From the NCBI GenBank assembly GCA_026388075.1, contig JAPLKN010000146.1:1-38949 (forward strand): DNA of 38,949 nt. Direction: 5' to 3'. This DNA is from Elusimicrobiota bacterium. GTDB lineage: Bacteria > Elusimicrobiota > Endomicrobiia > Endomicrobiales > JAPLKN01. Below are positions 9,723 through 38,949 of the stretch, in pieces. The notes under the pieces were generated by a model, which worked only from the letters and a program-made list of their open reading frames with translations, ran no database searches and was not told where the DNA came from. Every line of letters begins with the position of its first letter. Within the stretch, counting starts at the first letter, position 1. A program made the position numbers and the translations under genes.

Positions 9723-9751
9723 AGGATAGTCTAATAACTACAATTTGTCAA
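9723..9751 (-). promoter_or_regulatory. Promoter of the alpha/alpha-barrel gene
   Basis: TTGACA (9746-9751), a 17-base spacer and TATCCT (9723-9728) on the minus strand, about 43 bases upstream of the TTG start. Confidence 0.6.
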
Positions 9752-9774
9752 GGTTTTTTTTATAATAAAATTCA

Positions 9775-9840: not shown

Positions 9841-9846
9841 CGTATT

Positions 9847-10770: not shown

Positions 10771-10782
10771 TTTATTTTCAAG

Positions 10783-11283: not shown

Positions 11284-11310
11284 TTTTCTTTTTCTACTCA
11301 ACCTTTTTTA

Positions 11311-11349
11311 CTTACCCCTTACCACTTAACACTTACCCCTTATCACTTA
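11311..11349 (-). repeat. Heptanucleotide tandem array (TAAGNGN) at a stop codon
   Basis: On the minus strand TAAG recurs six times at exact 7-nt spacing (TAAGTGA, TAAGGGG, TAAGTGT and so on). The first TAA (11347-11349) is the stop codon of the 217-aa lipoprotein gene. The same arrangement exists at 289-313. Confidence 0.75.
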
Positions 11350-12000
11350 TTTCAAAAACTGTATATCGTCCAGATAAACCGTTCCGCCGTTGCCTTTTGT
11401 TGAGCCAAAATATTGAAAAGATAAAATTACATAATATTTTATTCCGGCCGCTAGTGAACCCGAAACAGGGAATTCTACCGTATGCCAATCATGGTCTGCC
11501 AGACTGCTTGTATAAATATTAGTTGTTGTTGAATTTGCTTCAAACTTCATCTGAAAAGCGACACTTGCGTTTAAACTGCCGCGAATCTTAAAAGAAAGTT
11601 TTGTGTATCCGCCGGGCGTCATATCCTTTGTTGAAGGAGAATCCTGATTATTGGAATCTTTTACGGCAAGCCCTATGCCAACCCATTGGAAAGTTCTTAC
11701 ATTGCCGCTGTTATAATCCGTTACTTCGCTCCCGTCCCATGAAAATTTAAGGCATTTTGATCCGTCTGCAGGCCTTTCGTAACAGCTGAAATCAAGAGTC
11801 TGGCCTTCCTGTGAAGTAAAAAAAACCACATCACCGCCGGTCCTAAGTTCCTGATCGTAAATAACATAAGGCCCGCTCCACGACGCTGCGGTAACGATAG
11901 TCGTAGGATTTAGAATTTTATCAGCAGGATTTTTATCGCACGCTGAAAAAATTGCTAAACACGGTATTAAAAAATAATATAAAAAATGTTTTTTACCCAT
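11347..12000 (-). CDS. Lipoprotein with carbohydrate-binding-like domain
   Basis: 217 aa. The lipobox IFSAC places the lipidated cysteine at residue 21. The rest is one jelly-roll domain: a bulge strand with CLKFSWDG, a central WVGIGLAV, GGYTKLSFKIRG, HDWHTVEFPVSG and the closing VYLDDIQFLK. This layout matches CBM11-like domains and the tail of the next-upstream coiled-coil protein. It has no other domain, so it probably displays glycan binding at the outer membrane. It starts 18 bases after the 475-aa gene, with AAGG as a weak ribosome site. Its stop codon begins a heptamer array. Confidence 0.6.
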   Translation of the reverse strand: MGKKHFLYYFLIPCLAIFSACDKNPADKILNPTTIVTAASWSGPYVIYDQELRTGGDVVFFTSQEGQTLDFSCYERPADGSKCLKFSWDGSEVTDYNSGNVRTFQWVGIGLAVKDSNNQDSPSTKDMTPGGYTKLSFKIRGSLNASVAFQMKFEANSTTTNIYTSSLADHDWHTVEFPVSGSLAAGIKYYVILSFQYFGSTKGNGGTVYLDDIQFLK

Positions 12001-12018
12001 TAAAAACCTTGTAAAAGC

Positions 12019-13446: not shown

Positions 13447-13476
13447 TTTGATTTCTCCTTTTTGAATTATTCTGTG

Positions 13477-15780: not shown

Positions 15781-15789
15781 TAGTGTCTA

Positions 15790-15818
15790 ATTTTACCTAA
15801 TATTTCTTAATTCGTCAA
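15790..15818 (-). promoter_or_regulatory. Promoter of the five-gene barrel/lipoprotein operon
   Basis: TTGACG (15813-15818), a 17-base spacer and TAAAAT (15790-15795) on the minus strand. The predicted start lies within a few bases of the ATG at 15780. Confidence 0.6.
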
Positions 15819-15846
15819 GTATTACCAATCACTTTTTAAAGATGTT

Positions 15847-15975
15847 CCCCTCTTTGAAAAAGAGGGGTGAGGGGAGATTTAATAACATCAAATCCCTCTC
15901 AATCTCCCTTTTTCAAAGTGAGAAGTTAGTTGGTTACCCCGCATCAAGATGCAGGGAATTGTCAAGTTAAATTTA
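15847..15975. repeat. REP-like hairpin plus dispersed repeat (copy 1)
   Basis: A 9-bp stem hairpin CCCCTCTTT-GAA-AAAGAGGGG (15847-15867) is followed by CCCCGCA (15937) with a GCATC-AA-GATGC hairpin, then GAATTGTCAAGTTAAATTT (15957-15975). The last motif and its CCCCGCA lead recur at 18172-18205, so the repeat flanks the glycosidase gene and tRNA-Val. Confidence 0.5.
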
Positions 15976-16004
15976 CCGCACTTTAGTGTTTTAATTGTAT
16001 TAAA

Positions 16005-17918
16005 TTATCTGTATTTTTTCCACAATTTTTGATATTCAAAATATGCAGGCCTAATCTGCCTTAAAAACGGGCTTTGTGAGCCATCGCCCTGTGTTGTAAG
16101 GCCCAAGAATTCTTCATAGCTCCAGCCGTCCAAAAACGGCGCTCCGAACTGCCCTATTTTATCCTGAATATAAGGGGAAAATTCCGGCGGGGGCCCGGCT
16201 TTCCACCATTCATCTGCCCATTCAAAAACAATGCCTCCCAAAGCATTTCCTTCTCCGCTACCTGCAAAATTATTCTCAAGATCAATCCAGTTACTGCGGT
16301 GATATTTTGCCTGGGCTGCCTCCGCGCGCACCTGATCCCACAATTTATGGGATGAGGAACATCCGTATTCGGTTATCAATACCGGCCTGTCAAAAGCATT
16401 TTTTACATCCCAAAAAAGATTTCCGAATCCCTGATCGCCCCTGTAAGCATTGCATCCGAATACATCTAATTCGGGAGCCTTTGCAGCGCAGATATCCAGA
16501 TAGAGCAAATCTCCGTTACAAACCGAGACCGGCCTTTGCTGAGGATCTAAAGTTTTGATCAATCTTACCGCTTCGTTTAAGAATTGATAATAGGCTTCCG
16601 GCTGAATCTTTGCCCTGCATCCCGAACCGGCGCTTTTACCGGGGATGCCCGGAGCGCCGTAGTTATTTTCATTGCCCAGAACCCACATTAAAATATAAGG
16701 TTTATCCTTGTACTCCTCAACCATCTGCCTGACGCTGTTAAGCATATTCTGGCGATGTTCCGTATTGGTATAGTCAGTCCCGTAATACCATTCCGCGCCC
16801 GAACCGGCGCAATACATGCCAAGAAAATCTCCCATAAGATACATAAATCCGTACTTTTTATACCCTTCCATCAGAAGATCGTCATTGAAGCCTCCGTGAT
16901 GGTACAGCCTTATAGTATTTACTCCCAAATCTTTCATAAGTTTGAAATCGCCTACAGCCTTTTCGTCTTTATCCTGTTTATTGTTTCTATTTCTGTCAAC
17001 AAAAGCTTCATAAGGACCGTCAATAATCCCGTTTTTATTATAATCCGCCCACATCCAGTCTCTTGACGGGTTCAATGTTCCGTTATCCGGGCTCAAGCCC
17101 ACTTTATTGGGAGAATATGCCACACCGCGTATATAATAAGGTTTGCTATTAACAAATAACTGCCAGTGTTTATTTGAAAATTTCGCCAGTTTTACATCTC
17201 CCTTTCCAATAAGCTTTACTATTTCAAGCTTGTCAAATTCTATTTTTTTCTCTTCCTGAGGAGCTCCTATTGCGATTTTGCCGGGATTAATAAGGAATAT
17301 GTCGTTTCCTCTTCTTGTATCAAAACTGTTTAGAGCCTTTATATATGCTCCTTCCAGATGTACTCCCAGATCGGGATTTTCTCTCATCAAAAATTTTATT
17401 CTGTCAACTGCGACCGGCCCGATATACCACATTGTTCCCCAGTAAGTCATACCGGTTGACTTTGGGAAATGAACAATAATAGCGTAATATGCTTTTATGG
17501 CGTGCCTTAAATTGCCCGAACGCTCCAATGCAAGAGCCGTATAATACAATTTTACACCCGGATCATCCTGAACAGTTGCCCATTTATAGAAGTTATATTG
17601 ATAACTGTCAGTATTTACAAAATTCCACTGGCTTCCTTCAAGTTTTCCTTCTTTTTTTGCTTTTTTAAATACCGGGTCCCGCAAAATACTTACAACATTT
17701 GGAAATATGCCTTCGCCGACTGCTACTTTCAATCCGGCAGGATCACTCATTTTATATTGATATTTTTCTGTCCCGGCTCCGATAAAAGTTCCGTATTTTG
17801 AGTAGTCTACGATATCTTCCGTTCCTTTGTCGTAAAGTTCAAATGCTGCGGCAAAAATATTAGAAAAAGACCCACACAGAAAACAAAAAACTACGAACGA
17901 CAAATAACGAAAAAACAT
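16005..17918 (-). CDS. Secreted clan GH-A glycosidase with EF-hand-like loops
   Basis: 637 aa. The start is ATG at 17918, five bases after GGAGG; an in-frame TTG at 17930 would place that ribosome site inside the gene. Signal peptide about 1-23 (YLSFVVFCFLCGSFSNIFA). A helical N-terminal region (about 80-200) includes a TPR-like ALALERSGNLRHAIKAYYAI. Then WQLFVNSKPYYIRGVAYSP opens a TIM barrel related to GH2/GH72-like enzymes: LGVNTIRLYHH, the acid/base Glu in MWVLGNENNYG (near residue 414) and the nucleophile Glu in PVLITEYGCSS (near 515). An insert near 290-320 has two calcium-loop motifs, DYNKNGIID and DRNRNNKQDKDE. Probably a retaining beta-glycosidase or transglycosylase acting on extracellular glycan; the substrate is unknown. 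A TATAAT lies 30 bases upstream, without a clear -35. Confidence 0.7.
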   Translation of the reverse strand: MFFRYLSFVVFCFLCGSFSNIFAAAFELYDKGTEDIVDYSKYGTFIGAGTEKYQYKMSDPAGLKVAVGEGIFPNVVSILRDPVFKKAKKEGKLEGSQWNFVNTDSYQYNFYKWATVQDDPGVKLYYTALALERSGNLRHAIKAYYAIIVHFPKSTGMTYWGTMWYIGPVAVDRIKFLMRENPDLGVHLEGAYIKALNSFDTRRGNDIFLINPGKIAIGAPQEEKKIEFDKLEIVKLIGKGDVKLAKFSNKHWQLFVNSKPYYIRGVAYSPNKVGLSPDNGTLNPSRDWMWADYNKNGIIDGPYEAFVDRNRNNKQDKDEKAVGDFKLMKDLGVNTIRLYHHGGFNDDLLMEGYKKYGFMYLMGDFLGMYCAGSGAEWYYGTDYTNTEHRQNMLNSVRQMVEEYKDKPYILMWVLGNENNYGAPGIPGKSAGSGCRAKIQPEAYYQFLNEAVRLIKTLDPQQRPVSVCNGDLLYLDICAAKAPELDVFGCNAYRGDQGFGNLFWDVKNAFDRPVLITEYGCSSSHKLWDQVRAEAAQAKYHRSNWIDLENNFAGSGEGNALGGIVFEWADEWWKAGPPPEFSPYIQDKIGQFGAPFLDGWSYEEFLGLTTQGDGSQSPFLRQIRPAYFEYQKLWKKYR

Positions 17919-17980
17919 CGTATCCTCCAATTTTTTTATTTCATTAATTATACGGCTGGAAATTTTAAGAGAATTCTATA

Positions 17981-23262: not shown

Positions 23263-26200
23263 TTATGCCGCAGACAATAACGCATCCATATTCTTTTTCA
23301 AATTCTTCAAGGCTTCATGTTCAAGTTTTTCGCTGATTGATTTAAATTCACGTTGAGCATAGATATCAAACAAATACAACAAATTGGTTATAGCCATTGC
23401 GGGATTTTGTTCCATCTCCATACTAGAAACAAGTTCCGCAAGAATATTTATAGCTTCATTTGATTTGGCTTCCACTTCCGGCGCAAAAGGCTCCTTATTT
23501 GATTTTATCATTGCATTTCTTTCTTCTACTGCCTTCTTTGCCGCCGACCATAAGTTCTGCTGATATTTTGTGAGCCGTTTTGGCTCATACTCATTATATT
23601 TTCCTTTCAAAATCTCAAACGCGTCTTGTATATTGTATACCACTTCAGTTGCAGTTGCATTGTCTTTGAACATTATCAGGTTAGCTTTAACCATAGCATT
23701 TGCGTAAATATGTTCAACATTTTTTTCAAACCTGTTGCCTGTCTGATTTTTAATCATCATTCTTTCTAGAAAACCCTGCAGGAATCCTTTAGCTTCAATT
23801 TCTCTTAGTTCCTCAATTTTAGAAGCTTCTAAACCGTCTAATTTCTCGCTGTTTATTTCTTTATTCAATTCTTTCCCTAGAAAGGACAAAAACCCAGTTT
23901 TTTCTTTTGCAAGTATTTTAAAGGCTTTGGCCGGATCTATCGCTGGCAGTTTGTCCAGGCTCAAAGCACTATTTCTGCCTTTTTCAAACCTGTATTCCGG
24001 ATCAGTTTTCCTTTTTTCGGTTATCATTTCGACAAAATTCCCGAGAAGGTCTAGAAAGCTATTAATTACTTTGTCTGAATCTCTGGCGTTTTTAAAAATC
24101 TGTGAGATTAATTCCGAAGGAAGACCTACAATTTTAGCGTTCATAATTTTTTCTTTCCAATCTCTATCAAAATTTTCAAAAGTCTGGTCTTTTTTCGCGA
24201 TAATCAATCCGCCGTTATTATCTGTTACGTATATTTCAATCCATGAATCTTTTATTTCATCCTTATCTATTTTCCCCATATCTTCACTGCTTAATGTATA
24301 TTTTACTACTTTTAAAATGTTGTTTTCATAGTAAAATTTGTTATCAAAAAATCCCTTATCTTTTCCGGCGTTTATAACCGCTACTAACATATCGCTTCTT
24401 TTATTGCGTATTATCTCTCTTAGTTTAGGTAAAACGTTATTTTCTTTTAGCAAAGCCAGTTTAAGCTGGGAAAGATTTGAAATATCTAAACGTATTCCAT
24501 CCAGGTTAGCATTCCTGTCAAGACAAGGTTTTATTTTTTTCATGAATTTATCAAAAAATGCTTGATCAAAAGCTTTATTATCGTCCACTTTATAATCTAT
24601 CATCACTTTTAGTCCTTTTTCATGAGCTCTTTGAACAGCTATCTTTAGGCTATCCATTGCCTTTGGCTCTGTTAATAGGTAGTCCTGTACCGCGGCATTC
24701 ACAGAAAATACGATAGTATCGACGTGTCTTTTTGTAATTTCATTTAAAAGATTATCCGTAATCTTTTCGTCAATTTTTTCTTTTATTTCTATAGTCTCGG
24801 ACAGTATCGGAAGCGCCTTAACAAACGGTTTTTGTTTTCTTTTAATAACATCATTTATCTGCCACATAAAATCATAAATACTTTCATCTTTGTCAGTAAT
24901 TATTACGTCAAAACCGGCATTTTGTTTGCTGCTTACAAAAACAGTGTTGCGGAATAAAGAATCTTTTGCAAAATCCGGATCGAGCGGCATGTCACTTTCT
25001 ATTGCGACAAACTTGCTTTTGTCGTCATCGCTTTTGCTGATTTCAGAAATCCATTTGAAAACATTTTCCGGATGAAATTCAAATTTAGAATTCCTTTGCC
25101 TAATCATGTTAACTTCTTCGTTATCATAGTAATAAACCGTAACGCCTTTTTGTCCTAATAAATCTTTTGTATATATGTTGAATAATTTATTGCCAATATT
25201 AAACTTATAATGCGTTCTAATAGTTTCATTAATAAAATCTTCTTTTTTCATGCCTTCAGGAATTGGCATAACCACATCAACCTTGCCTCCGATGTTAGCA
25301 ATGTCAATTGCATGCCTTATTTCCGGAGAAGAAACAAAATTCTGTTCGTTATATTGATTGCTGCACGCTATACCTATAAATCTGTTCCTGATTGTAGGAA
25401 TCTTTTTGCTGATATCATCAGGAAAAAGATTCAGATTCCTTTTTACGAACTCCGGTATCCAAGCGCCGTTTAATCCTTTAGGCGCAAGAAATCCCTGATT
25501 TATAACACTGTCTAAAACAGTTTTGAAAATAGCCATTACTACCAAAAGATTTTCAGGTATCGCCCATTCCACATTAGGCTGGTCCCTAAACTGAGAAGAC
25601 GGAACAGCAGTGGTTTGGGGGCCGAAAAACACTTTCCACAAAATTGGCAATTTATCTAACTGAGGCACAAATATTACGACATTTTTTTCTCCTTTCGGCG
25701 CTCTTTCAGGCTTCAATATGTTTAAGCCCACTGTCATCCCGTATTTCACCTTTTTGTTTTTAAACGATTCTAGCGTTTCATCGTGAAGCTTAATTACGCG
25801 TGTTTTTGAATCTAAATTGCTGGCGTCTCCAGGCTCATCAAACGCAAAATGGCCGGTTTGTCCCAACCCGCCGATTATATAATCAAAACTGATACCTTTT
25901 ATCTTTTCTTCAAACCTATCACATTCGGAAACACCGTTTTCTATTGTTCTCGCGTCAGCATTTAAAAAGTTGATTTGAGTCTCATCTATTTTTATTCCGG
26001 CTTCACGAAGAGGCCTGTATACGTTATCTTGCATATATGTCCAGTAGCTATCGGGATCATTTTTACCGCCGTCTAAATTAAGTTCTTCATCCAAATTATA
26101 AAATTGAACATTAGACATATCCAGCTTGTTCATTATCACCAATCTAACAAATTCTTTATAAAACTTAATTACGCTGTTTCCTGTGGCAAAAATTATATAA

Positions 26201-29200
26201 GTTGGACGTTTTGAATCGTTATTTTTCTTAATTATATTAACCAATCTTTCTGCCTGGCTTATATATATAAGATCCATGTCTTTCTCTGATACAATATTTA
26301 TTTTATTTTTTGCTAATTCTTTCTTTAACAATGATACTTTGCTTTCCTCTATTACTTTTTTAGATTTATCTTTTAAAGTCCCTGACATTAAATCAACTTT
26401 ACCCCATACGTGAAACGTATTCTGCAGCCAATGGCCAAAAATTGAACCGAGAGATTCTATTGGTTCATAGATTTTTTTTACGAGTATTACTAGAAAAATA
26501 AAATCAAAAATAAGATAAAGGCTTAAGAAATCTGGGACTAGTATTAAATTTAAAATAAATGGTAAAGCTATAGAACTAAAAATATATATTAGTATAATAA
26601 CCATTGGAAATCTTTCGGCAAAGTCTCTCACTCTTTTTACTGCTTTTTCATATTGTTGAGTTAATTCTGCCTTATATTCAGAACGTTGTTTCACATCCTC
26701 TTTGCTATATTTCGCGTCAACTAGATCATTAATTATATTTTCATGCGCTTTTATTTTTTCATTCAAAGAAACCGAATTCTGGAAAAGCTTTCTTTCCCGC
26801 CAGTAAGCGCGTTTCTTGGCTAGCTCATAAATTAGCTTTTTTGCTTCAGCTGGATTCTGTATTACCCATTCTTCGCCATATTTTTGAATAATTTTTTGTC
26901 TTGCTTTTTCCAAACTGTCAGCTGTAACGTGAGCTGTTTGTCCATTTGAAGCTTTTATCTCAACCGGCTTTTCAGTCAAAGGAAATTCTGCTAATCCCAG
27001 CCAAAATCTTACATTGTGCCAAAAATGCATTTCCATAGTATCTCTGAGATAGTAAAATAATTTTGACAAGCCTGACAAACCTTCTTTTGCTAACGACCGA
27101 ATACTTAAAACAGTTGATAATACATATCCGCTGAAATCTTTCGGATGTTTATCAATTACTTTTTGAATGTTTCCATATGCAATAGCAAATTTCTCTTTCT
27201 TGCGGGCAACTTCTAAAGTTGCATAAAGCGCAAAATATGCTAAAGCATTTTCTTCCGAATTGATTTTCTCCTCAAATATTTTTCTTTCTTCATCACTAAG
27301 TTTAATACTGTTTAGATAAGTGTTTTTAAATTCCTCCAAACGCCTTCTAAATAGGTCTTCGTTCTCTTCTGATAATTGCTTCGCCATTGCGATTTTGTAT
27401 TGATTCCAAATAATATCTTTTTCCGAATCAGACTCCCCTTCCATTCCCCTTGCTTCGAAAAAAGAATTCTTAAATTTCTCCTGATCCCTGACAGCTTTTT
27501 CTACCCGACTTTTTGACAACTCATTTACTTGATTAAACAGCTTTTTGCCGGTTTCCCTTGCCTTGGCACCTTTTCGCCCGGTAAAGTCTTTTGCTGCCTG
27601 TTCAACCGAGGCTAGGGAGGTTGCTAGATAATCGCTTGCCGAAGTTGAGTATACATTTTTTTTCATTGCCCTTTTCTGGATTATTGTGTTTAAAATATCG
27701 TCAAAAGTCAGTTTTTTCTTGGACAAATTTATTTCATTCTTAATCTCAGAAATTAAATTCTTGAAATTCTTTGTAAGACTAACTATTCTAGACATATTGG
27801 TCTTTTGCCTTTCAAGCAGGCCGCTGAAAACTATTTTTTTTGCGATATCATCATTAATCTCGGCTGCATAATTAGGAAATTTCCGGATTAATTCATTTTT
27901 TATAAAATCATTAACATCATTATTTGAAAATGATTCATTAACAAAAGAAAGTCCGCTTATATTATCAATATCTTTTTTAAATGCATCTTGAATTACCTTA
28001 TCAAGAGAATCATTAAAAACTGCCGCATCGCATTCATTCATAAATAATTCTTTCTTATTCTTTTTTTGATACAAAAAATATAACATGTATGAGTTAAAAG
28101 CATATTTCATCCTATTGAAATATTTACTCGTTATGCGAAAACGCTGTTCTTTATCTATAGGATTATCACCGTGATATAAAACTAAAGTTTCCGCAAATTG
28201 TTCTCTCATGCTTTTAATAAATTCATCAAAGACTGCCTGGGATTTTTTATCAAGAATATTAATATTTGATTTGGCAAAAGAAACTAAGTCTTTTTGCATA
28301 TTGTCCAGATTTTTCCGTATTCTTTTCATGTTATCTTCTGCTTCATTTTTCACTTCTTGTCTAGTTAAGTTTGTTACGGTGAAAATCATGTTAATAATAT
28401 CCGTATGAGGGCGATAACCGAATTCTTTCTCAAACATATTATTGATCATTTCAATATAGTCGCACATTTGGTCAAATGACGCGGAATAAATATAAATATT
28501 TTCCAAAATGGTTTCGAATAAAGGTCGATTATAATCTCGTTTCTGAGAAGGGTAGTGATAAACTATTTTAAAGCCATTGTAGTATTTCACTAAATTGATA
28601 AATCTGAGCTCCATTTCCGCAAGAGCTGGAATAAACTGCCCGGATACACTTTTGTCAATCCAATCAAAATCTTTAAATTTATTCAATTTTTCAAATAAAA
28701 TTCTGAATTTGCTTATGTAATCTTGATTAAATTGTTCTTTTGTTAAGAAAATACAATCTTTCTCAGCGTCAACATCTATAACAATTCCAGCTAAACGAAA
28801 CTTTTTCAAAAGATAAATAAAATTACGGCCACTTTCTCTAACAGGATAAATAAAAACGGATCCATCACTAGGACGATGAATATAAACAAAATTGTTATAA
28901 AAAGCGTCTTGGTTATAATATTGATTTTTATCAAGATATTGTGGATACCATGAATACAAAATATTAAAAACATCATCACTAAAATTATGCAACTTAATTG
29001 ATGTATCTAACGCTTGTTTTATCGTATTAATTTCTGAATCTTCATTATTCATGAAAGAAGTTAAAAGCCCATCCGATAATCCGAGCCAGTATCCGATATT
29101 GTTCGAATAATGACCAACCATAGTAGATATTAAATAATCATAAAATCCTTTTTTTCTTTTACGATTATTGAGAATCTTTATATATTTTTTCAAAAAGCCT

Positions 29201-32200
29201 TGTCCGATATTAAAAAAGAAATAAAATTTACTAGATGCATTTTTTGCTGTTGTGCGAATATTTTTAACCGCATCTGTTACATATTCCTGGAAAATTCCCG
29301 GGTGTTTCGCAGCCAATTTCTTAAGCCCTGAAGATTCACGCCCAAAAGCAAGCGCAAATTTCTCATTCTTTACAGCAGTATCAAGAGTTGCGTAAAGCGC
29401 AAAATACGCTAAACCGTTTTTATTATCCGCATTCAATAATTCTTGAAATATCCCCTTTTTCTTATGACTTAATTTAAAATTAGTAAGATAAGTTAAATCA
29501 TAAGTTTTTTTAAATTCTTCCAGGCGCTTATAAAATATTTCTTTACCTCCTTTCTTCCATTCAGGCGACTGCGTTAATTGATTGAATAATTTTTTTCCCG
29601 TCTCCCAGGCTTTCATGCATCTCCACCCGGTAAAGTCTTTTGCCGCTTTTTCAACCGAAGCTATTGAAGTGGCTAAATTTGAATCTTGTTTGAGCTTAGC
29701 AGATATTTCATTATTTAATTGATCTTTTTGGTCTTGAGGTAATTCTGCGTTGTTTATAAATGCAATAATTGCAGCTTCAAGTCCATTTTGAAAATTCATT
29801 ATAATTTTTAATTTATTTTGATTATTATCAGTTTGATTCGCACTAACTTTCAGCCGTTCTTTAATTTTGAAATAAATTTCTATAATTATTGACAAATAAT
29901 TATCGATAGTAGTATCTTTTTTTGCAAATTCAAAGTCTTTTTGAAAGCCATAATTAAGAAATTTAGCAAATTCTCCTATCGTTAGTTTTTCGGAATGCTC
30001 AGCAGATATTGCATCTAATATTTCAATTAAAGAATCCGCAATTACTTCTTTATTAACTCCAGTAATAATCGCTTCTTTCTTTCTTGTTTTCACTTTAGAC
30101 TTTACATGATCTATAAAAGTAGAAAACAGTGCCATTGAAACATTATTTGAAGCAGCCATATAATCATTATAATTTTTGAGCAAAGTTGCCCTCACTTTTC
30201 CTTCCATTAACTCTTGCCTTTCCTCATCTGTTATTTTCAGACTTTCCATACTAACTGCAAAATCTAAATGATTTTTGCTTACTAAACTACTAAATTTTTC
30301 TAGACTCATAATATCTTTTCGAATTAATATTTTTACTAATTTAAAAATCGCTTCTTTAAAGCCCCATGTTGAACTTACCCATATATTTTTATTAAGATTT
30401 TCCAATTCTTTATTATTATTAATTGAACTATAGATTGTAAGAAGATTGTCTATGTAATTTTCATATTTAGCAGTAAGTTCTTCCTGAATATTCATATTTT
30501 CAATTTGTGTATCCTTAACAAAAAAGTCAAAGAAAATTATTTCAAAAGCATTCTTATCATAAAATAAAACATAATTTTCGCCAGTTTCTTTTTCTTGAGC
30601 ATTTTCTAAGTTTGAAATATTTTTTATTACTTCTGTTAATATATTTATCATCAGTTTAGTTTCAGTATTAATTATTAAAAATCCATTTCTCGTATCCACG
30701 CCATTAATACTCAAGGAATTACTGATAATATTATAAAGTGATTCTGAAGAATTACTCTCTTCCGGCAGAGTCAAAACCGCTAATCCCCAAAAAGGATATA
30801 TATCGGATTCAATATTTTTCTTTATCCAGTTCCACCCAAGTACTTCCTTGTTTTCGCCTTTCTCGTTTATCGCCAAAGTCTTGCCGACAATAACTTTTTT
30901 GTTCCATTCACTGTGTTCAATCTGTAATTTTTGTTCTTCTGTTAAATTTTCCTTATTCTTTGCTGCTTTTAAATGCAAATCACCAACCGCTGTTTTTATG
31001 GCTTTAAGCTGAAGGGCGTTGACTAAATCTATAAAAGGTTTAATCTGGCCCTTAAAAGTATTCAAAACAACGTCCATAAATTCATTATGGTGTAATTGCA
31101 CAAACTTTTCCTTATTCTTAAGCATCTTAGTTTCATAAGAAGTAAAAGGGGCATAATATCTAGCGGTGAAGATTGCCGCCAGTTCCTGTTCTGCCCTTGC
31201 CGGATTAATTTTTTCGTCCGTCAAATCAAGCCCGTTTTGCTTTGCAAAGTTTTTAGCAAGTTCAGCTGCACAATCAGATTTTATTAAGATATATTTGCTA
31301 TCCAAAAGAATACCTTTATTTACCCCGTCTTTTTTCAATATTTCAAAAAATGCCCTCAAATACTCTATCGGAAGAGTAATTGTCTTTTTATCTCGGAAAC
31401 AATCTAAAACAACTTTAAGAGAGGATTTCAAAACTGGCAAGGTATTTCCCTTCCCCAAATTACCATATAACCCTCTTATTTTCTTATCAATAATAGTTCT
31501 TTCAATATCTTCAACCATCTGCGCGGCTTTTTCAGGATTGAAATTGTTATATTTTGCATTTTCTATTAAAGATTCTATTGCGCCACTAACCAATTTTTTA
31601 TTTTTGCGCTTTTCTGCTAGATTGATAATATCTTTTTCAAGTATCGTGAGCATATCAGGCATTTTTTCCAAATCAATTTTCGCGAATTTGACGTTTGTGT
31701 AATCAAGCCCATTAATCAGATCTCTAATAAATTCTTTCATTTGTTCAGGCTTTTTGATTTTCTTGAATATTTCCGAAAGAAATCGGTCAAGCATTTCTGG
31801 TTTCCCGTCTATATGTCCGCTGATTATCCCGAACAAAACTGCTATGCTGTATCCATCAGATAATCCTTTATTTTTGCATTCATTCCATATCTCAGAAAGA
31901 CTGTTAACATCAAGCGGTTTTTGTTCGCCAAAAATATTCTCCCAATACTTATCAAATACTCCTTGAATAATATCATTTTTAATATCTTGCTGGCTTCTTT
32001 GCAAGGACAAAACAGCTAATCCTGAAAAAGGAGGTAAATTATTTTCAATGCTTTTACGAATTTGGTCCCAATTTTTGACTAGAATCTTTTTATTCCACTC
32101 ATGATGCTTTTTCTGCAAGCTTATAATTGAAACTTTTTCTTTATCTTCTTGTTTTGTACCAAGGACGAATTTTAAACCTTCTTCAAAGACAGAAACAGCT

Positions 32201-35200
32201 TTTGTGGCTACATCCATTAAAGACTTATATAATTCTAACTGTCCACCACAAGCCTTATTAACAATATCAAGCACATCAATAATATGCTCGCTTTTAACCG
32301 CTTTCTCTCCTTTCAAGAATAATTGAGTCTCATCTGCAGAAAACGGCGCAACATATATTGCTGCAAAAATTGCGACAAATTCTATTTTTCTTTTTTCAGC
32401 ATCTACTTTTTTATCCATTAATTCAAGATTGTATTTTTTTGCAAAGTTTGCAGCTAAGAAGACAGCATCTTCAGCTTTTATAATAATGTTTCCTTCTTCA
32501 GCGCCAAGCTTATTTTGGATTTCTTCGCTAATCTCTTCTTCTTTTAGGATTTCAATAAAAGCTTTCGCATAATCCCCCGTGAAGATTATTTCGCTGCCTT
32601 CTTCCCCGTTAATGCATTTAAGTGCCAAATCAAAAGAAGAATTTCGTACCAAAATTCCCTCACCGAATTCTAATTGCTCAATTAAGCATCTAATTATTTC
32701 GTTTTTTTCATATTTTTGCTGCTTTTTTACCTCTTCGGATGAATTACTATTTTCTATTTTCTTACTCAAAAATTTGTCCAAGCCCAAGCAACCCAGACAA
32801 ACATCCTCAGTCATTTGCATTTGCTGAAAAATCGGAATATTTATTTGAAATAATTGTACGGCAAATTCTAATTTTCGATTTAGACTATTTAAACCAACAT
32901 TTGAACTTATGATTTTTTCAAAAATATCAGTGATAAAATCAAAATCGCCCAATTTAATGTCAGCTTTATAGGCAGTATCAGATAATAATAAGTTAAAAAA
33001 TAATTTGTAAACAGGATTATTAATAAGGATTTTTTCAAATTCAGAATTTTTCTCCGCAAATCTTGAGGATATTTCAAATATTTTTTGCAGCGCATCTTCC
33101 GGTTCTAAAAGATTTTTTCGAAAAGTTCGATAACTTTCGTGCATAAGATTTGCCACTTCCAGTGGAAGAGCTTCCTTATTTAAACTTCCGGAAACCACCA
33201 TCTTTAATAAGGAATTTATCCTATTTTTAAAATTATCTTCAATCTCATCACTTCTGCCCGTTTGCATAAGAAGAGCTTTGTTTACATTCCGTAAACCATC
33301 AAGGTTAACTGCTTTATGAAAGAATTTTTCAATATCGCTCATTAAAGATCTAGCTATCCAATCCGCTTCTTCCACTAATCCTTTATTATTTTGGAGCCCT
33401 AAAGATTGAAGTACTGCTTTAATAATATTTGCAATTGAATCTGCGTTTTTTGTATTTGTTTCGTTAATCCAATCTCTCTTTTTCCCTACCTCTTCTCGCA
33501 GTTCAGGCAAATGACTCCTTAGCCAACCTCCGTCATTAATATTTTCCATATCGGGAGCCCAATCAAGTGCAACCCAAGCAAATATTACCGCAAATTCATC
33601 TTCTAACATTTTCTTTTTGATTTCTTCCGCTGGAATTACCTCTATCAGCCGATCGTCCCGATATTTATCTAGAAATTTTTCTTTATCCCATAATTCCAAT
33701 AATTTTTCCTTAGATATATCTTCTTGTTTTTTTCCGACTATTTTCCATAAGATTTCCCGAACTTTATTTCCATAGATTTTGTCATCATAAAACAATTCCA
33801 GAATGTTTCTGTTAGATAATTTCTTGTATTTTTCTTCGATTATTTTCCGCAGATTTTCTCTGATTTGAATCATAAAAGTATCGTCATTATACAGATCAAG
33901 AAATTCTTTTTTATTCTTGACCGTTTCCGGTTTAATATTTTCTTGTTCTTTGCTAAAAAGCCATTTACGAATATCTTCTCGTTGATCCCCAGAATATGTT
34001 TTACAAAATGTTTCGGCACGGGCAATAATGCTATCGCGGGTAACAAGCATGGAATCGCCTAAATCCCAAGCTTTCATTTTTTGCTTCTCTATTTCTATGC
34101 TTGAAAACAATTCTTCTATTAACGGCACTGAATCTATTTTTAGGCTTAAAACATTCACTGCTTTTAGAAGCAATTTAGTAATGCGGGGCAAAACACTCTC
34201 AGCAATATCTCCTGCAGTTTTAAAAAGTGAAGGAGAATTCTCTAGATTATCTGAAATGGCCTTAAGGCTATTTAAAAGAAGTTCGGATATTTCCCCAATG
34301 ATTCTACCGCTACTATTACTAATCCATCTCGTTACTTTATTAACTTTAGCCTGCACATTAGCCGGAAATTTTGAAATATATGTATTAAAATTAGTGATGT
34401 CTTCTTCCTGCGCTGCCTGCCGGAAAACTTCAGAAACAACTAAATACATAAATTGTCTAATCGAAATTTCAAAATTTACCCCCGTTTCCTTTTGGTTTAC
34501 AGTTTCAATAATTTTTATTTCGTCTTGAACAATTTGATTGTAAAATAAATCCGGCACATCTTTTATTTCCATAACATTATCCAAAGAAACCCCACAGTCT
34601 TTTGCTTTTTCTTTAGCATATTTTTCATAACGTTCCATTTTTTTCTTGAGCGGATCAGCTTTTAAATCGGCTTTTAAACCCGCGATAACTGCTTTCATTC
34701 TTGCAGGCGTAATAAGTAACGGTATGTTTTGCAGTAGGGTTACTGATTTTATCTGATTCATTATTCCCCAGACTGTTTCCCTATCATTTATAATCTGGGT
34801 CCAGTATATCGCTTCTTTGAAAAGCGGAAAATCATAGGCCATGTCTTTTTCTTTTAAAACCAGATACTCGTTTAGACTTTCAGCAACATAAGCCAGGTTC
34901 AGCTTTTTGGACTTAGCAATGCTTTCCCTTCCCTGCCTTGCTCTTATTGCCTGGGGAATATATCCATGCAGCATTCCGCTGATTTGTTCCCACTGTATCC
35001 CTATACCATCTTCGCGCTTATCTATAAACTCTTTAGGCAAAAGCTTATCAAAATTTAGCGTAATCTTTGTCATATCATTTTCCGTAAGTTTTTCTAGTCT
35101 ATTTTTTAATGCATCAAGTTCTTTAGCATTTCCTGTTGTTATATCTTCTACTTGTTTCCAAGTTATTAACGTATCACCATCTACTTTTATCCCTTCGCTG

Positions 35201-38200
35201 ATAGCATAAAGCAAAGCTGCGTTATTTATAACATTAACAAAACACGAAAAAATACTTCCGTCACGGTCAGGCATGAAGCCCCTGCTGTTTTCTTCTTTTG
35301 AAATATTCGTGTCGTTTACATTATTCACCCCGCCAAGCTTTAAAAATACACCGCCTTTTTTACCGATCTTTCTCCACTCCCCTACCGCAACATGTGCCAA
35401 GTTTTCTTTAGACATTCGCCCGATAATTTCAAGGATTTGAAGCGAATCTTGCTGAGCAAACGGATTATCCGCAGAACGCGTTACATCAAATATAACGCCC
35501 TGCTTCAGAGCCTCAGTAATAATATCCAGACTCCAACCCCTAACATTACCGTGCCCTAAAGGTACTTCAGCTTTTGACCCGAAGAAATTAATGAATCCCG
35601 TTTCTTTATTTACTCTGCCGGGAAGAAGGGCAAAACCGCTGTTTTTAAGAATTGGCTGAAGATTTATTGGCTTTCCGTTTCTTTGAATATTTTCCCATAT
35701 ATCAGTCATCATTTCATCAAAAGTGAACGGGCTTAAGACTATAGCAAGTTTTCCATTCTTTATTTTTCCAACATGTTCTAATAAAAATGCAAGACCCGTG
35801 CTAGATTTTTCTTTTTTGTCGTAATAAACAGCCAAGGACCTCGGCTTATGCCTGCTCTTAATTTCAAAATCGTTAAGCCACCCCTTTTCATTGGCTAGTT
35901 CAGTGCTGTTCTCCCACTTTGTAACTGTTCCGCCTGCCACCGCGAATGTCCTTATAGCGCCTCTATCCTGAAATTCTTTTCCTATAGGCCTGTAAAGTTC
36001 GCCCGGACGAATATCTCCATCAACAACTTGCTTCAAAATATCAAGAGGAATATTTAAAGAAATTAACCGCATCGCAAATTCGGACGGCATTGAATCATCG
36101 CTTATCTGCAGTTTATCTTTTATATACTTTATTTGACCGCCCCACCCTTTTGCGCTCATATCAAGGGCTTTAGCGCGTTTTGCTGCCCAGTTTTCTTTAA
36201 AAGTAAAAACGGTTAATGCTTGAATAATATCTTTTTTGAATTCACTAAATTCGGAAAAAGACTTATCTGAGTCTCTATTGTCAACATCGTATTCTTTAAG
36301 CTCTTTTGCCAACTCATACAAATACTGATCTTTTGATATTAGTTTATTTTCTAACTTCACCCAATAGTTAAGCCTTTCAATCGGATCATTTGCTTTAGCT
36401 TTTTCATACAGTCTTGTAAGTATTTTAGGTGTTAATTTGCCGATTCCGGATGACGGCAGAGCAATTTGGCCGTCGTCCCCAAGCTTGAGCTGGAAACTCT
36501 CTAGAAGTATTTTCAACCGACCGGTACTAAGATAAGGCGGCCAGATTTCATCATCGTAAGGGCCTGAATCTTCATTACTAAATGTCTCTACTTCAGCGTT
36601 GCTTTTTGAATTGAATATTACATGGGACAATTTTTTTGGAGCAAATTTCTCCATGGAACTTCCTTTAGAAATAAGCCAAATTACTTTCTGCTGCTGTCTT
36701 TGTTCCATTAGCTCGCCTAGCCTTGTCCATAACTTCCCAAGCCTTTCTTTTAATTTTATAGCCCTTTGTTCTTGAGCCGGATTAGAATATTCTTTTAAAA
36801 ATGGGTGAGGAAGGCCAACAACATGATGAATCCCTTCAAAAAGACGCAGCATAAGCGAATAACTTTGGTCCTCCGTAACTAACACAGCTACCCCTCTAAG
36901 TTTTTTGTATAGCTCTTCAAGTCTAGTAAGGAAAGCCTCAATTTCATTTAGTACTTCATCCGTATCCTTTTTCCAGTCTGAAAATGTTTTAGAAATGTTT
37001 TCTCGCCTTTCTTGCAAAGGTTTTATTACGTTATCTAAACTTTTAATTATTTCGTCAGAAAAATTATTCTCAGCATATTCTTTGTATTTCGGGTGATTGG
37101 ATGCAAATTCAGAAAAAGTCAGGAACGCTGTTCCGGGATGTTTGATATCATTTTCATATTTTGCTAGCGCGTAATCAGCAACTATTTCTAAAAGCATTTC
37201 TTGAGCTTCAGCCGGAGCTCTTTTTATCCCGAATATAAAAACTGATTCGGCAATTTCAATTTTTAACTGATTTGGCGCGTCATCACGAACCCTTACAAGA
37301 TATCCTTCCAAAAGATCGCCAGGAACTACAGAAACTATAAATTTTCCATTGAATCTTTGTAAGCCAAGAGAAGAAAGTTTTTCAACACTTAGCTTATTCA
37401 AATAGTCTTCAATACTTGTGTTAAATTTATCAAATAATTGTACTTTAATAAGAACAGCAATCGTTCTTGCAATATCCGGATTAAATCCTTTTGGTATCAA
37501 ATATTTAAGGGTAAATATCTGGCTCAAAGCATCTAAAACGCCAAGGAATGAGCCTTGTTTTAAAAAAGGTTCTAAATCTTTAGCGTCTATGACCGGATTG
37601 CCTTTTACTTTTGGGTATTTAGAGAATTTTTCATGTATTGTGTTAAAGGCATCAAGAAGGTTTTTTCTATTGGCTTTTTCGGTTAAATATTCCAATATCA
37701 GGCCTACAAGCTCTTTGCGTTCCGGTTGCTTCAGCGTATTTTCAGCTAAATCAAAAAGCCCTTTTATGGATTCCGCAAACACTTCCGAATCCTGTGGATT
37801 TTCAATTAGAGGTTTAATATAGATTTCTTTTATTCTTTTTGTTGTCGCATCTGCGGTTTCTCCCACTTTGCCTTCGGTTTTAAAAAGTTCCAAGATATCC
37901 AAAGCGGAATAAATCTTTTCAACAAGCTCGTCGCCTTTTAACGGCTCTGCCTCTTTAAGAATAGCTCTTACGCTAATTTCAAGACTCTTCACCGCAGTTT
38001 TTGTGCCTGCCACGCTATCTGGATCGGCAGAAGTTTTACTAGTACCTGATTTTTTAATTACATCATTTTTTGAAGGGATGATGGCATCTTTGTTAAGGGC
38101 TGGGGATTTGTCTTGAACTAAATTCTCTCCAATGTTTTCGTCCTCTTGTTTCCTTATGAAAGATATTATTTCATTTATTTGCTCTATTTCTGAAACAGGT

Positions 38201-38943
38201 CTTTCAAATGAAAGCAAATATTTTTCTACTCTTTCCAAGTAATCAGTAATATCTAGTTTAACGTCTTTTATCCACTTGCTAGTCACTCTATAAAACTGCC
38301 ATGCATATTCTTTCTTGAATTCTAAAAACTGCCATGCGTCTTCTTTCTTGAATTCTATATCTGTATTAGCTTTAATAATACCATCAAATATTTCATAACA
38401 TCCTAAATATTTTTGATTATATATGCGCGGATATTTATAATATTCTGCTACAATAACTTTTTCAAAAAATATTTTGTAAACTGAACCTGTGAAGAGATTT
38501 GTCAAATTTGGATTGTTCTTTTTGGTTACATAATTAAAAGTAATTTCTAATATTCTTTTAGGCGATTCGGCTCCTACAAGGCTTGAATACATAACATTTA
38601 CTATATTTTCCGCAATAATTTCATCGCCTTTAAGCTCTCCGGATTCTATTTTTTTCATTAATGCATCCATTTCAGTTTCAAACTCTTCTTCTGGAGTAGG
38701 CACCACAGTAGTAAGCACTGTTCCTTCTTTGGTTCTTCTTGTCTTCTTTTTCTGCAGACCTCCGATATTAATTATTCCATGCATAATCATTTCACAATGA
38801 TTTTTAATATATTCCGGAATCGAATTTATCTCCTCTTCGAACTCTTTACTCATTGTTTTCGTCAATCCGGGCACAAGAAATTTAAGTTTTTTAAGAGCGT
38901 CTTCTTTATTTGGATCTTTTTTGTACGGAACCAAATTTACCAT
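23263..38943 (-). CDS. Giant multidomain protein (at least 5226 aa), partial at window edge
   Basis: A single uninterrupted frame, visibly more AT-rich than typA or the helicase. The first Met in view is at 38943, but the frame stays open (GAAGAA) to 38949, so the true start may lie outside; numbering is from 38943. There is no signal peptide; the protein is mostly helical and Lys/Ile/Glu-rich. Regions: about 985-1290 resemble UDP-sugar pyrophosphorylases (VAGGTVTKW near 998, PLGHGNVRG near 1125, DNPFAQQDSLQIL); about 4114-4155 is a hydrophobic membrane segment; about 4220-4490 is NagB-like (NLDEE with D4285, GLGQTGHFAFDEP with T4363, H4365 and E4370, YGMTVGLNIL); about 4700-4900 may be an amylase-like TIM barrel (AHEKGLKVMIDY, LDGIRLDIS near 4814). 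Internal duplications: 88-195/1902-2015, 2095-2312/2500-2727, 3090-3300/3773-3990. Overall function unknown; the recognisable pieces concern sugar phosphates and nucleotide sugars. Confidence 0.85.
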   Translation of the reverse strand: MVNLVPYKKDPNKEDALKKLKFLVPGLTKTMSKEFEEEINSIPEYIKNHCEMIMHGIINIGGLQKKKTRRTKEGTVLTTVVPTPEEEFETEMDALMKKIESGELKGDEIIAENIVNVMYSSLVGAESPKRILEITFNYVTKKNNPNLTNLFTGSVYKIFFEKVIVAEYYKYPRIYNQKYLGCYEIFDGIIKANTDIEFKKEDAWQFLEFKKEYAWQFYRVTSKWIKDVKLDITDYLERVEKYLLSFERPVSEIEQINEIISFIRKQEDENIGENLVQDKSPALNKDAIIPSKNDVIKKSGTSKTSADPDSVAGTKTAVKSLEISVRAILKEAEPLKGDELVEKIYSALDILELFKTEGKVGETADATTKRIKEIYIKPLIENPQDSEVFAESIKGLFDLAENTLKQPERKELVGLILEYLTEKANRKNLLDAFNTIHEKFSKYPKVKGNPVIDAKDLEPFLKQGSFLGVLDALSQIFTLKYLIPKGFNPDIARTIAVLIKVQLFDKFNTSIEDYLNKLSVEKLSSLGLQRFNGKFIVSVVPGDLLEGYLVRVRDDAPNQLKIEIAESVFIFGIKRAPAEAQEMLLEIVADYALAKYENDIKHPGTAFLTFSEFASNHPKYKEYAENNFSDEIIKSLDNVIKPLQERRENISKTFSDWKKDTDEVLNEIEAFLTRLEELYKKLRGVAVLVTEDQSYSLMLRLFEGIHHVVGLPHPFLKEYSNPAQEQRAIKLKERLGKLWTRLGELMEQRQQQKVIWLISKGSSMEKFAPKKLSHVIFNSKSNAEVETFSNEDSGPYDDEIWPPYLSTGRLKILLESFQLKLGDDGQIALPSSGIGKLTPKILTRLYEKAKANDPIERLNYWVKLENKLISKDQYLYELAKELKEYDVDNRDSDKSFSEFSEFKKDIIQALTVFTFKENWAAKRAKALDMSAKGWGGQIKYIKDKLQISDDSMPSEFAMRLISLNIPLDILKQVVDGDIRPGELYRPIGKEFQDRGAIRTFAVAGGTVTKWENSTELANEKGWLNDFEIKSRHKPRSLAVYYDKKEKSSTGLAFLLEHVGKIKNGKLAIVLSPFTFDEMMTDIWENIQRNGKPINLQPILKNSGFALLPGRVNKETGFINFFGSKAEVPLGHGNVRGWSLDIITEALKQGVIFDVTRSADNPFAQQDSLQILEIIGRMSKENLAHVAVGEWRKIGKKGGVFLKLGGVNNVNDTNISKEENSRGFMPDRDGSIFSCFVNVINNAALLYAISEGIKVDGDTLITWKQVEDITTGNAKELDALKNRLEKLTENDMTKITLNFDKLLPKEFIDKREDGIGIQWEQISGMLHGYIPQAIRARQGRESIAKSKKLNLAYVAESLNEYLVLKEKDMAYDFPLFKEAIYWTQIINDRETVWGIMNQIKSVTLLQNIPLLITPARMKAVIAGLKADLKADPLKKKMERYEKYAKEKAKDCGVSLDNVMEIKDVPDLFYNQIVQDEIKIIETVNQKETGVNFEISIRQFMYLVVSEVFRQAAQEEDITNFNTYISKFPANVQAKVNKVTRWISNSSGRIIGEISELLLNSLKAISDNLENSPSLFKTAGDIAESVLPRITKLLLKAVNVLSLKIDSVPLIEELFSSIEIEKQKMKAWDLGDSMLVTRDSIIARAETFCKTYSGDQREDIRKWLFSKEQENIKPETVKNKKEFLDLYNDDTFMIQIRENLRKIIEEKYKKLSNRNILELFYDDKIYGNKVREILWKIVGKKQEDISKEKLLELWDKEKFLDKYRDDRLIEVIPAEEIKKKMLEDEFAVIFAWVALDWAPDMENINDGGWLRSHLPELREEVGKKRDWINETNTKNADSIANIIKAVLQSLGLQNNKGLVEEADWIARSLMSDIEKFFHKAVNLDGLRNVNKALLMQTGRSDEIEDNFKNRINSLLKMVVSGSLNKEALPLEVANLMHESYRTFRKNLLEPEDALQKIFEISSRFAEKNSEFEKILINNPVYKLFFNLLLSDTAYKADIKLGDFDFITDIFEKIISSNVGLNSLNRKLEFAVQLFQINIPIFQQMQMTEDVCLGCLGLDKFLSKKIENSNSSEEVKKQQKYEKNEIIRCLIEQLEFGEGILVRNSSFDLALKCINGEEGSEIIFTGDYAKAFIEILKEEEISEEIQNKLGAEEGNIIIKAEDAVFLAANFAKKYNLELMDKKVDAEKRKIEFVAIFAAIYVAPFSADETQLFLKGEKAVKSEHIIDVLDIVNKACGGQLELYKSLMDVATKAVSVFEEGLKFVLGTKQEDKEKVSIISLQKKHHEWNKKILVKNWDQIRKSIENNLPPFSGLAVLSLQRSQQDIKNDIIQGVFDKYWENIFGEQKPLDVNSLSEIWNECKNKGLSDGYSIAVLFGIISGHIDGKPEMLDRFLSEIFKKIKKPEQMKEFIRDLINGLDYTNVKFAKIDLEKMPDMLTILEKDIINLAEKRKNKKLVSGAIESLIENAKYNNFNPEKAAQMVEDIERTIIDKKIRGLYGNLGKGNTLPVLKSSLKVVLDCFRDKKTITLPIEYLRAFFEILKKDGVNKGILLDSKYILIKSDCAAELAKNFAKQNGLDLTDEKINPARAEQELAAIFTARYYAPFTSYETKMLKNKEKFVQLHHNEFMDVVLNTFKGQIKPFIDLVNALQLKAIKTAVGDLHLKAAKNKENLTEEQKLQIEHSEWNKKVIVGKTLAINEKGENKEVLGWNWIKKNIESDIYPFWGLAVLTLPEESNSSESLYNIISNSLSINGVDTRNGFLIINTETKLMINILTEVIKNISNLENAQEKETGENYVLFYDKNAFEIIFFDFFVKDTQIENMNIQEELTAKYENYIDNLLTIYSSINNNKELENLNKNIWVSSTWGFKEAIFKLVKILIRKDIMSLEKFSSLVSKNHLDFAVSMESLKITDEERQELMEGKVRATLLKNYNDYMAASNNVSMALFSTFIDHVKSKVKTRKKEAIITGVNKEVIADSLIEILDAISAEHSEKLTIGEFAKFLNYGFQKDFEFAKKDTTIDNYLSIIIEIYFKIKERLKVSANQTDNNQNKLKIIMNFQNGLEAAIIAFINNAELPQDQKDQLNNEISAKLKQDSNLATSIASVEKAAKDFTGWRCMKAWETGKKLFNQLTQSPEWKKGGKEIFYKRLEEFKKTYDLTYLTNFKLSHKKKGIFQELLNADNKNGLAYFALYATLDTAVKNEKFALAFGRESSGLKKLAAKHPGIFQEYVTDAVKNIRTTAKNASSKFYFFFNIGQGFLKKYIKILNNRKRKKGFYDYLISTMVGHYSNNIGYWLGLSDGLLTSFMNNEDSEINTIKQALDTSIKLHNFSDDVFNILYSWYPQYLDKNQYYNQDAFYNNFVYIHRPSDGSVFIYPVRESGRNFIYLLKKFRLAGIVIDVDAEKDCIFLTKEQFNQDYISKFRILFEKLNKFKDFDWIDKSVSGQFIPALAEMELRFINLVKYYNGFKIVYHYPSQKRDYNRPLFETILENIYIYSASFDQMCDYIEMINNMFEKEFGYRPHTDIINMIFTVTNLTRQEVKNEAEDNMKRIRKNLDNMQKDLVSFAKSNINILDKKSQAVFDEFIKSMREQFAETLVLYHGDNPIDKEQRFRITSKYFNRMKYAFNSYMLYFLYQKKNKKELFMNECDAAVFNDSLDKVIQDAFKKDIDNISGLSFVNESFSNNDVNDFIKNELIRKFPNYAAEINDDIAKKIVFSGLLERQKTNMSRIVSLTKNFKNLISEIKNEINLSKKKLTFDDILNTIIQKRAMKKNVYSTSASDYLATSLASVEQAAKDFTGRKGAKARETGKKLFNQVNELSKSRVEKAVRDQEKFKNSFFEARGMEGESDSEKDIIWNQYKIAMAKQLSEENEDLFRRRLEEFKNTYLNSIKLSDEERKIFEEKINSEENALAYFALYATLEVARKKEKFAIAYGNIQKVIDKHPKDFSGYVLSTVLSIRSLAKEGLSGLSKLFYYLRDTMEMHFWHNVRFWLGLAEFPLTEKPVEIKASNGQTAHVTADSLEKARQKIIQKYGEEWVIQNPAEAKKLIYELAKKRAYWRERKLFQNSVSLNEKIKAHENIINDLVDAKYSKEDVKQRSEYKAELTQQYEKAVKRVRDFAERFPMVIILIYIFSSIALPFILNLILVPDFLSLYLIFDFIFLVILVKKIYEPIESLGSIFGHWLQNTFHVWGKVDLMSGTLKDKSKKVIEESKVSLLKKELAKNKINIVSEKDMDLIYISQAERLVNIIKKNNDSKRPTYIIFATGNSVIKFYKEFVRLVIMNKLDMSNVQFYNLDEELNLDGGKNDPDSYWTYMQDNVYRPLREAGIKIDETQINFLNADARTIENGVSECDRFEEKIKGISFDYIIGGLGQTGHFAFDEPGDASNLDSKTRVIKLHDETLESFKNKKVKYGMTVGLNILKPERAPKGEKNVVIFVPQLDKLPILWKVFFGPQTTAVPSSQFRDQPNVEWAIPENLLVVMAIFKTVLDSVINQGFLAPKGLNGAWIPEFVKRNLNLFPDDISKKIPTIRNRFIGIACSNQYNEQNFVSSPEIRHAIDIANIGGKVDVVMPIPEGMKKEDFINETIRTHYKFNIGNKLFNIYTKDLLGQKGVTVYYYDNEEVNMIRQRNSKFEFHPENVFKWISEISKSDDDKSKFVAIESDMPLDPDFAKDSLFRNTVFVSSKQNAGFDVIITDKDESIYDFMWQINDVIKRKQKPFVKALPILSETIEIKEKIDEKITDNLLNEITKRHVDTIVFSVNAAVQDYLLTEPKAMDSLKIAVQRAHEKGLKVMIDYKVDDNKAFDQAFFDKFMKKIKPCLDRNANLDGIRLDISNLSQLKLALLKENNVLPKLREIIRNKRSDMLVAVINAGKDKGFFDNKFYYENNILKVVKYTLSSEDMGKIDKDEIKDSWIEIYVTDNNGGLIIAKKDQTFENFDRDWKEKIMNAKIVGLPSELISQIFKNARDSDKVINSFLDLLGNFVEMITEKRKTDPEYRFEKGRNSALSLDKLPAIDPAKAFKILAKEKTGFLSFLGKELNKEINSEKLDGLEASKIEELREIEAKGFLQGFLERMMIKNQTGNRFEKNVEHIYANAMVKANLIMFKDNATATEVVYNIQDAFEILKGKYNEYEPKRLTKYQQNLWSAAKKAVEERNAMIKSNKEPFAPEVEAKSNEAINILAELVSSMEMEQNPAMAITNLLYLFDIYAQREFKSISEKLEHEALKNLKKNMDALLSAA
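38291..38356. repeat. 33-bp in-frame tandem duplication in the giant gene
   Basis: Two adjacent 33-bp copies (38291-38323 and 38324-38356) differ at a few bases and encode KKEDAWQFLEF followed by KKEYAWQFYRV, at about residues 199-220. Recent slippage is likely. Confidence 0.75.
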
Positions 38944-38949
38944 TTCTTC

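Follow-up and report, generated by a model that had tools for sequence, protein, structure and literature searches.

A giant open reading frame in an Elusimicrobiota genome belongs to a family of very large proteins with modules derived from sugar-phosphate enzymes

Huge proteins of more than 5000 aa are enriched in several bacterial phyla, Elusimicrobiota among them, and those of Elusimicrobiota lack COG assignments (PMC11573180). Giant ORFs also occur in the Omnitrophota (Velamenicoccus archaeovorus, for example, has one of 39,678 aa) and have been proposed to be adhesins or polysaccharide-degrading surface coats (PMC10066038). The DNA analyzed here (the window) is an entire contig of 38,949 nucleotides from an Elusimicrobiota bacterium (C146 of the genome that we call G000). 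It carries a giant frame of 5,228 codons on the minus strand (23263-38949), the 3′ portion of a gene whose 5′ end lies beyond the contig edge. Elsewhere on the contig, a series of genes on the minus strand (3317-17930) codes for predicted secreted proteins, most without a Pfam match, including a GH2-like protein (16005-17930) and a protein with weak similarity to FlgD-Ig (13477-15780). An IS200-like Y1 transposase is found at 1118-1798 on the minus strand (Pfam 2.8e-14).

The giant frame terminates with a stop codon at 23263-23265, and at its other end it runs without a stop into the contig edge (38949). The ATG at 38943 encodes its first Met and need not be the start. Residues are numbered here as frame residues 1-5228, with residue 1 at the contig-edge end (38949). 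The initial annotation described an uninterrupted 15.7-kb ORF of more than 5200 codons, open at the edge, and this is exact, with a coding signal throughout. When the sequence was simulated 200 times with a first-order Markov model, the longest stop-free run was 203 codons, and the other two forward frames contain 458 and 614 stops. G+C content by codon position is 0.39-0.47, 0.26-0.30, and 0.27-0.34, and these values are steady along the whole frame. The lack of stops, the steady codon-position G+C, and the open contig edge together indicate a coding, 5′-truncated frame. Thus, 23263-38949 is one strongly coding frame of a real, very large bacterial protein. Two segments of the frame are conserved in independent assemblies. 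That the frame is an assembly chimera or a frameshift artefact is hardly credible. It does run to a contig end, and the 2.14-Mb, 95%-complete assembly is fragmented into 167 contigs, but zero stops with a consistent codon-position signal, and the recurrence of such frames across many independent assemblies, argue strongly against such an origin.

The frame ends in a conserved C-terminal module of 756 residues (residues 4473-5228; 23266-25533, minus), the last of which are LLSAA. The closest copy is in C79 ORF1 of the same genome (33% identity), and the last part of the module aligns also with the giants G324:C22 and G295:C31. The profile built for the module (A5) recovers giants that were left out of its building. 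Of the 84 genomes of the order, 23 contain the module, for the most part in giant frames; its position at the very end of the window frame and the single long frame itself are both features of the family described below. Within the module is a barrel-like part (residues about 4740-4910; 24220-24732, minus) with weak similarity to MupG and GH13. It contains the motifs VMIDY and LDGIRLD, which resemble GH13 regions I and II. The best PDB match to this part had an E-value of 0.0008, followed mostly by amylase-type enzymes at 0.06 and worse, and we did not see the region III Glu (general acid) of GH13 in it. As the similarity is weak, with region I/II-like motifs only and the catalytic acid missing, we do not assign this part to the amylases (GH13). 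The AlphaFold model of the C-terminal region, calculated for two sequences, has a pLDDT of 38, too low to be of use.

A second conserved module (residues 647-1366; 34852-37011, minus) is common to the window and the giants of Ca. Endomicrobium neocapritermitis (G295), which belongs to the same order as the window's genome, and Elusimicrobia RA.bin118 (G168), with 35-44% identity. Its core (residues 963-1366) carries the nucleotidyltransferase-like motifs VAGGT, LGHGNVR, and SADNP. A scan of genome contigs with the core gave matches in Elusimicrobiota only, and scans of IMG/VR recovered no relative of the core or of the C-terminal module. The AlphaFold model of residues 640-1370 (three sequences) has a mean pLDDT of 42, likewise too low to be of use. 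Compared with UDP-sugar pyrophosphorylase (PF01704; PDB 9uml, 3oh0), the window's module has a similar order of motifs, but no significant similarity. The core has no Pfam match and no PDB match, and profile-profile comparison with genuine USP modules resulted in E-values of 0.2-0.7. We thus do not assign the window's own module to this family. A genuine UDPGP module is found in the giant G293:C21, where it matches solved UDP-sugar pyrophosphorylases (E-value 5.8e-41), and, by homology, in a sister giant of the window's genome (C107). All PF01704 matches in the 84 genomes of the order fall in frames of 1,138-11,689 aa; the domain was therefore not found as an ordinary-sized gene in the order.

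The window also contains a module derived from glucosamine-6-phosphate deaminase, NagB (residues 4206-4466; 25552-26334, minus). Glucosamine_iso is the only Pfam domain below an E-value of 0.001 in the frame (PF01182, score 21.9 versus a cut-off of 27). The NCBIfam nagB model (TIGR00502) matches at 1e-26, but with a score of 93.8 versus the curated cut-off of 236.9. The NagB-like family PRK02122 (NF002557) matches at 6.8e-20, and glucosamine-6-phosphate deaminases in the PDB match at about 1e-18. We take D72, D141, H143, E148, and K208 (E. coli numbering) to be the active-site residues of NagB. In the alignment, the window's module retains four of these five (at the positions of D72, H143, E148, and K208), and the D141 position is Thr as against Asn or Asp in ordinary NagBs of the phylum. 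Judged from these matches, the resemblance to NagB is real in the window. The module is like NagB and PRK02122 in its profile matches and most of its active-site residues, but differs in its scores below the curated cut-offs, its Thr, and its place in a giant frame beside a membrane hairpin. The hairpin, probably of two membrane helices as judged by hydropathy (residues 4118-4157; 26479-26598, minus), is located just ahead of the NagB module, and no other part of the frame is strongly hydrophobic. With the window NagB as query, no ordinary-size NagB was found in the window's genome; the same query detects ordinary NagB in many other genomes of the phylum. Two other giants, G325:C21 and G168:C90 (6,504 and 7,856 codons, 5′ open), also contain NagB modules, together with internal repeats, of which two are 88% identical to each other (G325, residues 1231-1401 and 2719-2888).

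Three sugar-enzyme resemblances had been proposed for the frame by the initial annotation. The NagB resemblance is significant, the one to UDP-sugar pyrophosphorylase lacks significance, and the one to an amylase barrel is weak; the broader view of a single giant protein with modules derived from nucleotide- and amino-sugar enzymes is supported. Its estimate that more than 3500 residues match nothing was right, as Pfam and NCBIfam give only NagB as significant. Neither database identified NRPS/PKS domains (adenylation, condensation, ketosynthase, or carrier) in the frame. Residues 1-646 (37012-38949, minus) are helix-rich and have no recognized relatives, and within them residues 22-223 are weakly repeated at 1843-2037. 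Two stronger repeats are present. The copies of the first (residues 2086-2365, 31855-32694; residues 2491-2785, 30595-31479; both minus) are 32% identical (E-value about 1e-26), and those of the second (residues 3092-3300, 29050-29676; residues 3775-3995, 26965-27627; both minus) are 36% identical (E-value about 1e-34). A relationship of these repeats to those of C79 ORF1 was suggestive by eye, but it was not significant (E-values 0.08-0.09) and we did not retain it. We found no convincing relative of residues 1367-4230 (about 2,860 residues) in the giants examined. Residues 2350-2480, a helical, K/E-rich sequence, match a 317-aa ORF on C124 (E-value 5e-6).

Relatives of the window frame share an architecture consisting of a conserved N-terminal head and a variable, enzyme-derived middle, with the conserved C-terminal module in the window's subfamily. 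The head was first found on C79 ORF2, G295:C31, and others. It is present in at least 69 of the 341 genomes of the phylum, mostly in several copies each, with the best few candidates per genome scored. The initial annotation had suggested a search of other genomes for the same architecture, and the giant family does recur in many independent assemblies. The set compared holds no other genome of the taxonomic family to which the window's genome belongs. Searches of the window's genome gave 13 head matches on 12 contigs, in frames of up to 11,262 aa, and the giants with a head or C-terminal module counted in this way amount to ~58,000 codons, about 8% of the assembly. Head, phosphoglucose isomerase (PGI) module, and C-terminal module occur together in one uninterrupted frame in G293, G312, G314, and G316. 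By eye and hydropathy, the heads begin with a basic, hydrophobic leader, several with AxA-like ends. Beyond its leader, no other membrane segment is predicted in the 3,727 aa of the G293 giant. Pfam matches to the head are weak, i.e., ChaN/Tiki in one member (1.4e-4) and the EndoS barrel in one member (7e-5).

The IMG/VR scan with the head resulted in one relative. This sequence (IMGVR_UViG_3300045144_000334) is filed as viral and encodes a giant-family head with 26% identity, but is probably cellular DNA. Two contigs of the window's genome are also of note. The whole 33.8-kb contig C149 is one 11,262-aa open frame (2-33787, plus) that includes part of a head, a domain related to SNF2 (4e-14), and SecA-like domains (3e-6), and for which numerous membrane helices are predicted. 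On C126 (2455-12578, minus), the head is split over frames of 434 and 2,978 aa, which may reflect a frameshift or the breakage of a giant gene. The giant G295:C31 (4720-16209) contains, by eye, a HELTH metalloprotease-like motif at about residue 800, between the head and the module of the 963-1366 type.

The window frame encodes roughly the last two thirds of a giant protein. A likely 5′ piece is found on C79, which carries the 3′ end of one giant (ORF1) and then the start of another (ORF2, 11042-17401), a 2,120-codon frame with a leader, a head, and a URO-D module. In a tree of the heads, those of C79 ORF2 and C109 are sisters and group with the heads of relatives that have the C-terminal module (support 100/99). 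Because the head on C79 lies downstream of ORF1, the two cannot be parts of one gene, and the simplest pairing is therefore the C109 head with C79 ORF1 and C79 ORF2 with the window. By elimination in this fragmented assembly, C79 ORF2 is thus likely to be the 5′ piece of the window gene, which would then span at least about 7,200 codons. We did not find an overlap among the eight contig ends compared, and the last 150 bases of C146 have no second match anywhere in the assembly. The initial annotation also read the protein as cytoplasmic or inner-membrane-anchored, with no signal peptide. This does not follow, because the frame is the 3′ part of a larger gene with its start outside the window; full-length relatives and C79 ORF2 begin with a signal-like segment (by eye and hydropathy).

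Enzyme-derived modules in the giants of relatives include GlpX FBPase (G168:C226), PGM (G295), PIG-L with NagB (G170), PGK (G291, 3e-72), PGI (G293, 8e-166), and PGM and UDPGP (G293). ADH_N and adenosine deaminase are also found, as are, in the window's genome, URO-D (C79 ORF2) and the SNF2 and SecA-like domains of C149. Like methylcobamide-type methyltransferases, the URO-D module (residues 1521-1782 of C79 ORF2) carries an H-x-C motif and, further on, a second Cys motif. In the PGM module of G293, TASHN, DPDADR, GAEES, and RLSGTEP are all preserved, and by eye the active-site loops are kept in both G293 and G295.

The PGI modules of the giants share 45-52% identity with the order's stand-alone PGI (PF00342), but lie inside frames of up to 5,862 aa and mostly lack the catalytic Glu, which we take to be E357. 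In eight giants from three genera (G307, G308, G310, G311, G312, G314, G316, and G318), this Glu is replaced by Thr: the motif is GTAGTD, as against GE(P/A)GTN in the stand-alone PGIs of the order, and the Glu is kept in 7/7 stand-alone copies aligned. The eight altered modules keep the equivalents of R272, H388, and K518 and the SIS motif. They form one supported clade in the tree; the loss therefore probably happened once and was then maintained. With dN/dS values of 0.13-0.18 for three pairs within the clade, the Glu-less modules are under strong purifying selection. This agrees with the suggestion of the initial annotation that degenerate enzyme folds serve as sensors or scaffolds. The PGI modules of G292, G293, and G302 keep the Glu, and those of G295, G297, and G323 are more degraded. 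Given these PGI states and the intact PGM loops, the family mixes intact, altered, and decayed enzyme modules. We did not detect a PGI module in the window, and the pseudoenzyme argument therefore reaches the window only through family membership.

A stand-alone pgi lies directly upstream, on the same strand, of a head-bearing frame in 17 genomes (G291, G292, G293, G295, G296, G297, G298, G301, G302, G307, G308, G312, G314, G315, G316, G319, and G323), some of these frames being cut by contig ends. A local source for duplication is therefore at hand, which is what would be expected if the giants had grown by neutral accretion, i.e., if stop-codon loss and tandem duplication had repeatedly joined neighboring genes onto a secreted head, leaving the middles as decaying ballast between a head and a tail that alone matter. 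The window's unique middle and the strong variation of middles between close relatives (25% identity, G291 versus G292) are also in keeping with such a history. However, the giant-borne PGI modules are strongly constrained, and in independent genomes the giant frames are free of stops for thousands of codons. Functionless accretion is less likely because of that constraint, and we consider it quite improbable.

Our preferred reading, which we hold tentatively, is that the window encodes part of an exported or envelope-anchored scaffold of captured sugar-phosphate enzymes, some of them pseudoenzymes. The N-terminal head with its signal-like hydrophobic segment would lead the giant into export. 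The middle would be assembled from duplicated cytosolic enzymes of sugar-phosphate and nucleotide-sugar metabolism together with helical filler, and the C-terminal module, fixed in the subfamily, would add a barrel-like part and a helical tail. The protein would be exported, or anchored in the envelope by the head and membrane hairpins. Its enzyme-derived modules would mainly form a chain of sugar-phosphate-binding or structural units, some of which have lost catalysis and others of which may have kept it. Within the window, the barrel without the GH13 acid and the NagB module with Thr at the D141 position are consistent with a scaffold. The complete-looking PGM, URO-D, and some PGI sites, and the four active-site residues kept in the window NagB, point the other way.

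Those intact sites are what would be expected of the main rival, an active multi-enzyme megaprotein in which FBPase, PGI, PGM, UDP-sugar pyrophosphorylase, and NagB channel fructose phosphates, amino-sugar phosphates, and UDP-sugars on the inner membrane face, held there by the N-terminal segment and the hairpins. The set of modules spells a coherent pathway, PF01704 occurs only in large frames of the order, and no other NagB was found in the window's genome; the hairpin at residues 4118-4157 could hold NagB on the cytosolic side. Nevertheless, the catalytic base of PGI is lost in eight giants, and most of the genomes with these also have an intact stand-alone pgi. The leader of the G293 giant, with no other membrane segment, would put its PGI, PGM, and USP modules outside, and the UDPGP-like module of the window is not recognizably UDPGP. 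We therefore regard the active megaprotein as unlikely. Several intact enzyme modules in one leader-bearing chain could also suggest a secreted polyprotein from which individual enzymes or effectors are cleaved once it has been exported or released, and the metalloprotease-like motif seen by eye in the Endomicrobium relative would suit this. We did not identify cleavage sites or a dedicated protease, and several modules are catalytically altered, so that a polyprotein is very unlikely.

If the giants are exported scaffolds, as we prefer, the roughly dozen of them counted in the window's genome may repeatedly capture enzymes of central metabolism and turn them into non-catalytic, sugar-phosphate-binding chains on the envelope, which could recognize or bind the surfaces of hosts or partners, or released metabolites. 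The window would encode one of these chains. This fuller proposal is possible, and we consider it more doubtful than the scaffold itself. It offers a testable idea, that captured enzymes become conserved pseudoenzymes in an exported chain, and the small, expressible PGI, PGM, USP, and NagB modules are concrete targets for assays of activity and ligand binding. Duplication of nearby metabolic genes, as the upstream pgi in 17 genomes illustrates, is a plausible origin of such giants.

The giants of Elusimicrobiota and Omnitrophota have been recorded but are functionally blank, and the family described here provides an anatomy of fixed head, fixed tail, and variable middle. In the literature searched (without preprints and most subscription journals), we found no account of such a head/tail family or of sugar enzymes captured by giant proteins. 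Huge proteins in Elusimicrobiota were already reported; the head/tail composition with captured enzymes is apparently undescribed, and we do not assert priority. The Omnitrophota giants (PMC10066038) can be likened to the window frame by their description, being giant, frequent in their phylum, and equipped with membrane helices and few annotated domains. The huge proteins reported from Elusimicrobiota (PMC11573180) are of the same phylum and the same size class as the window frame, from which they differ in that the head/tail architecture and the captured sugar enzymes are described here.
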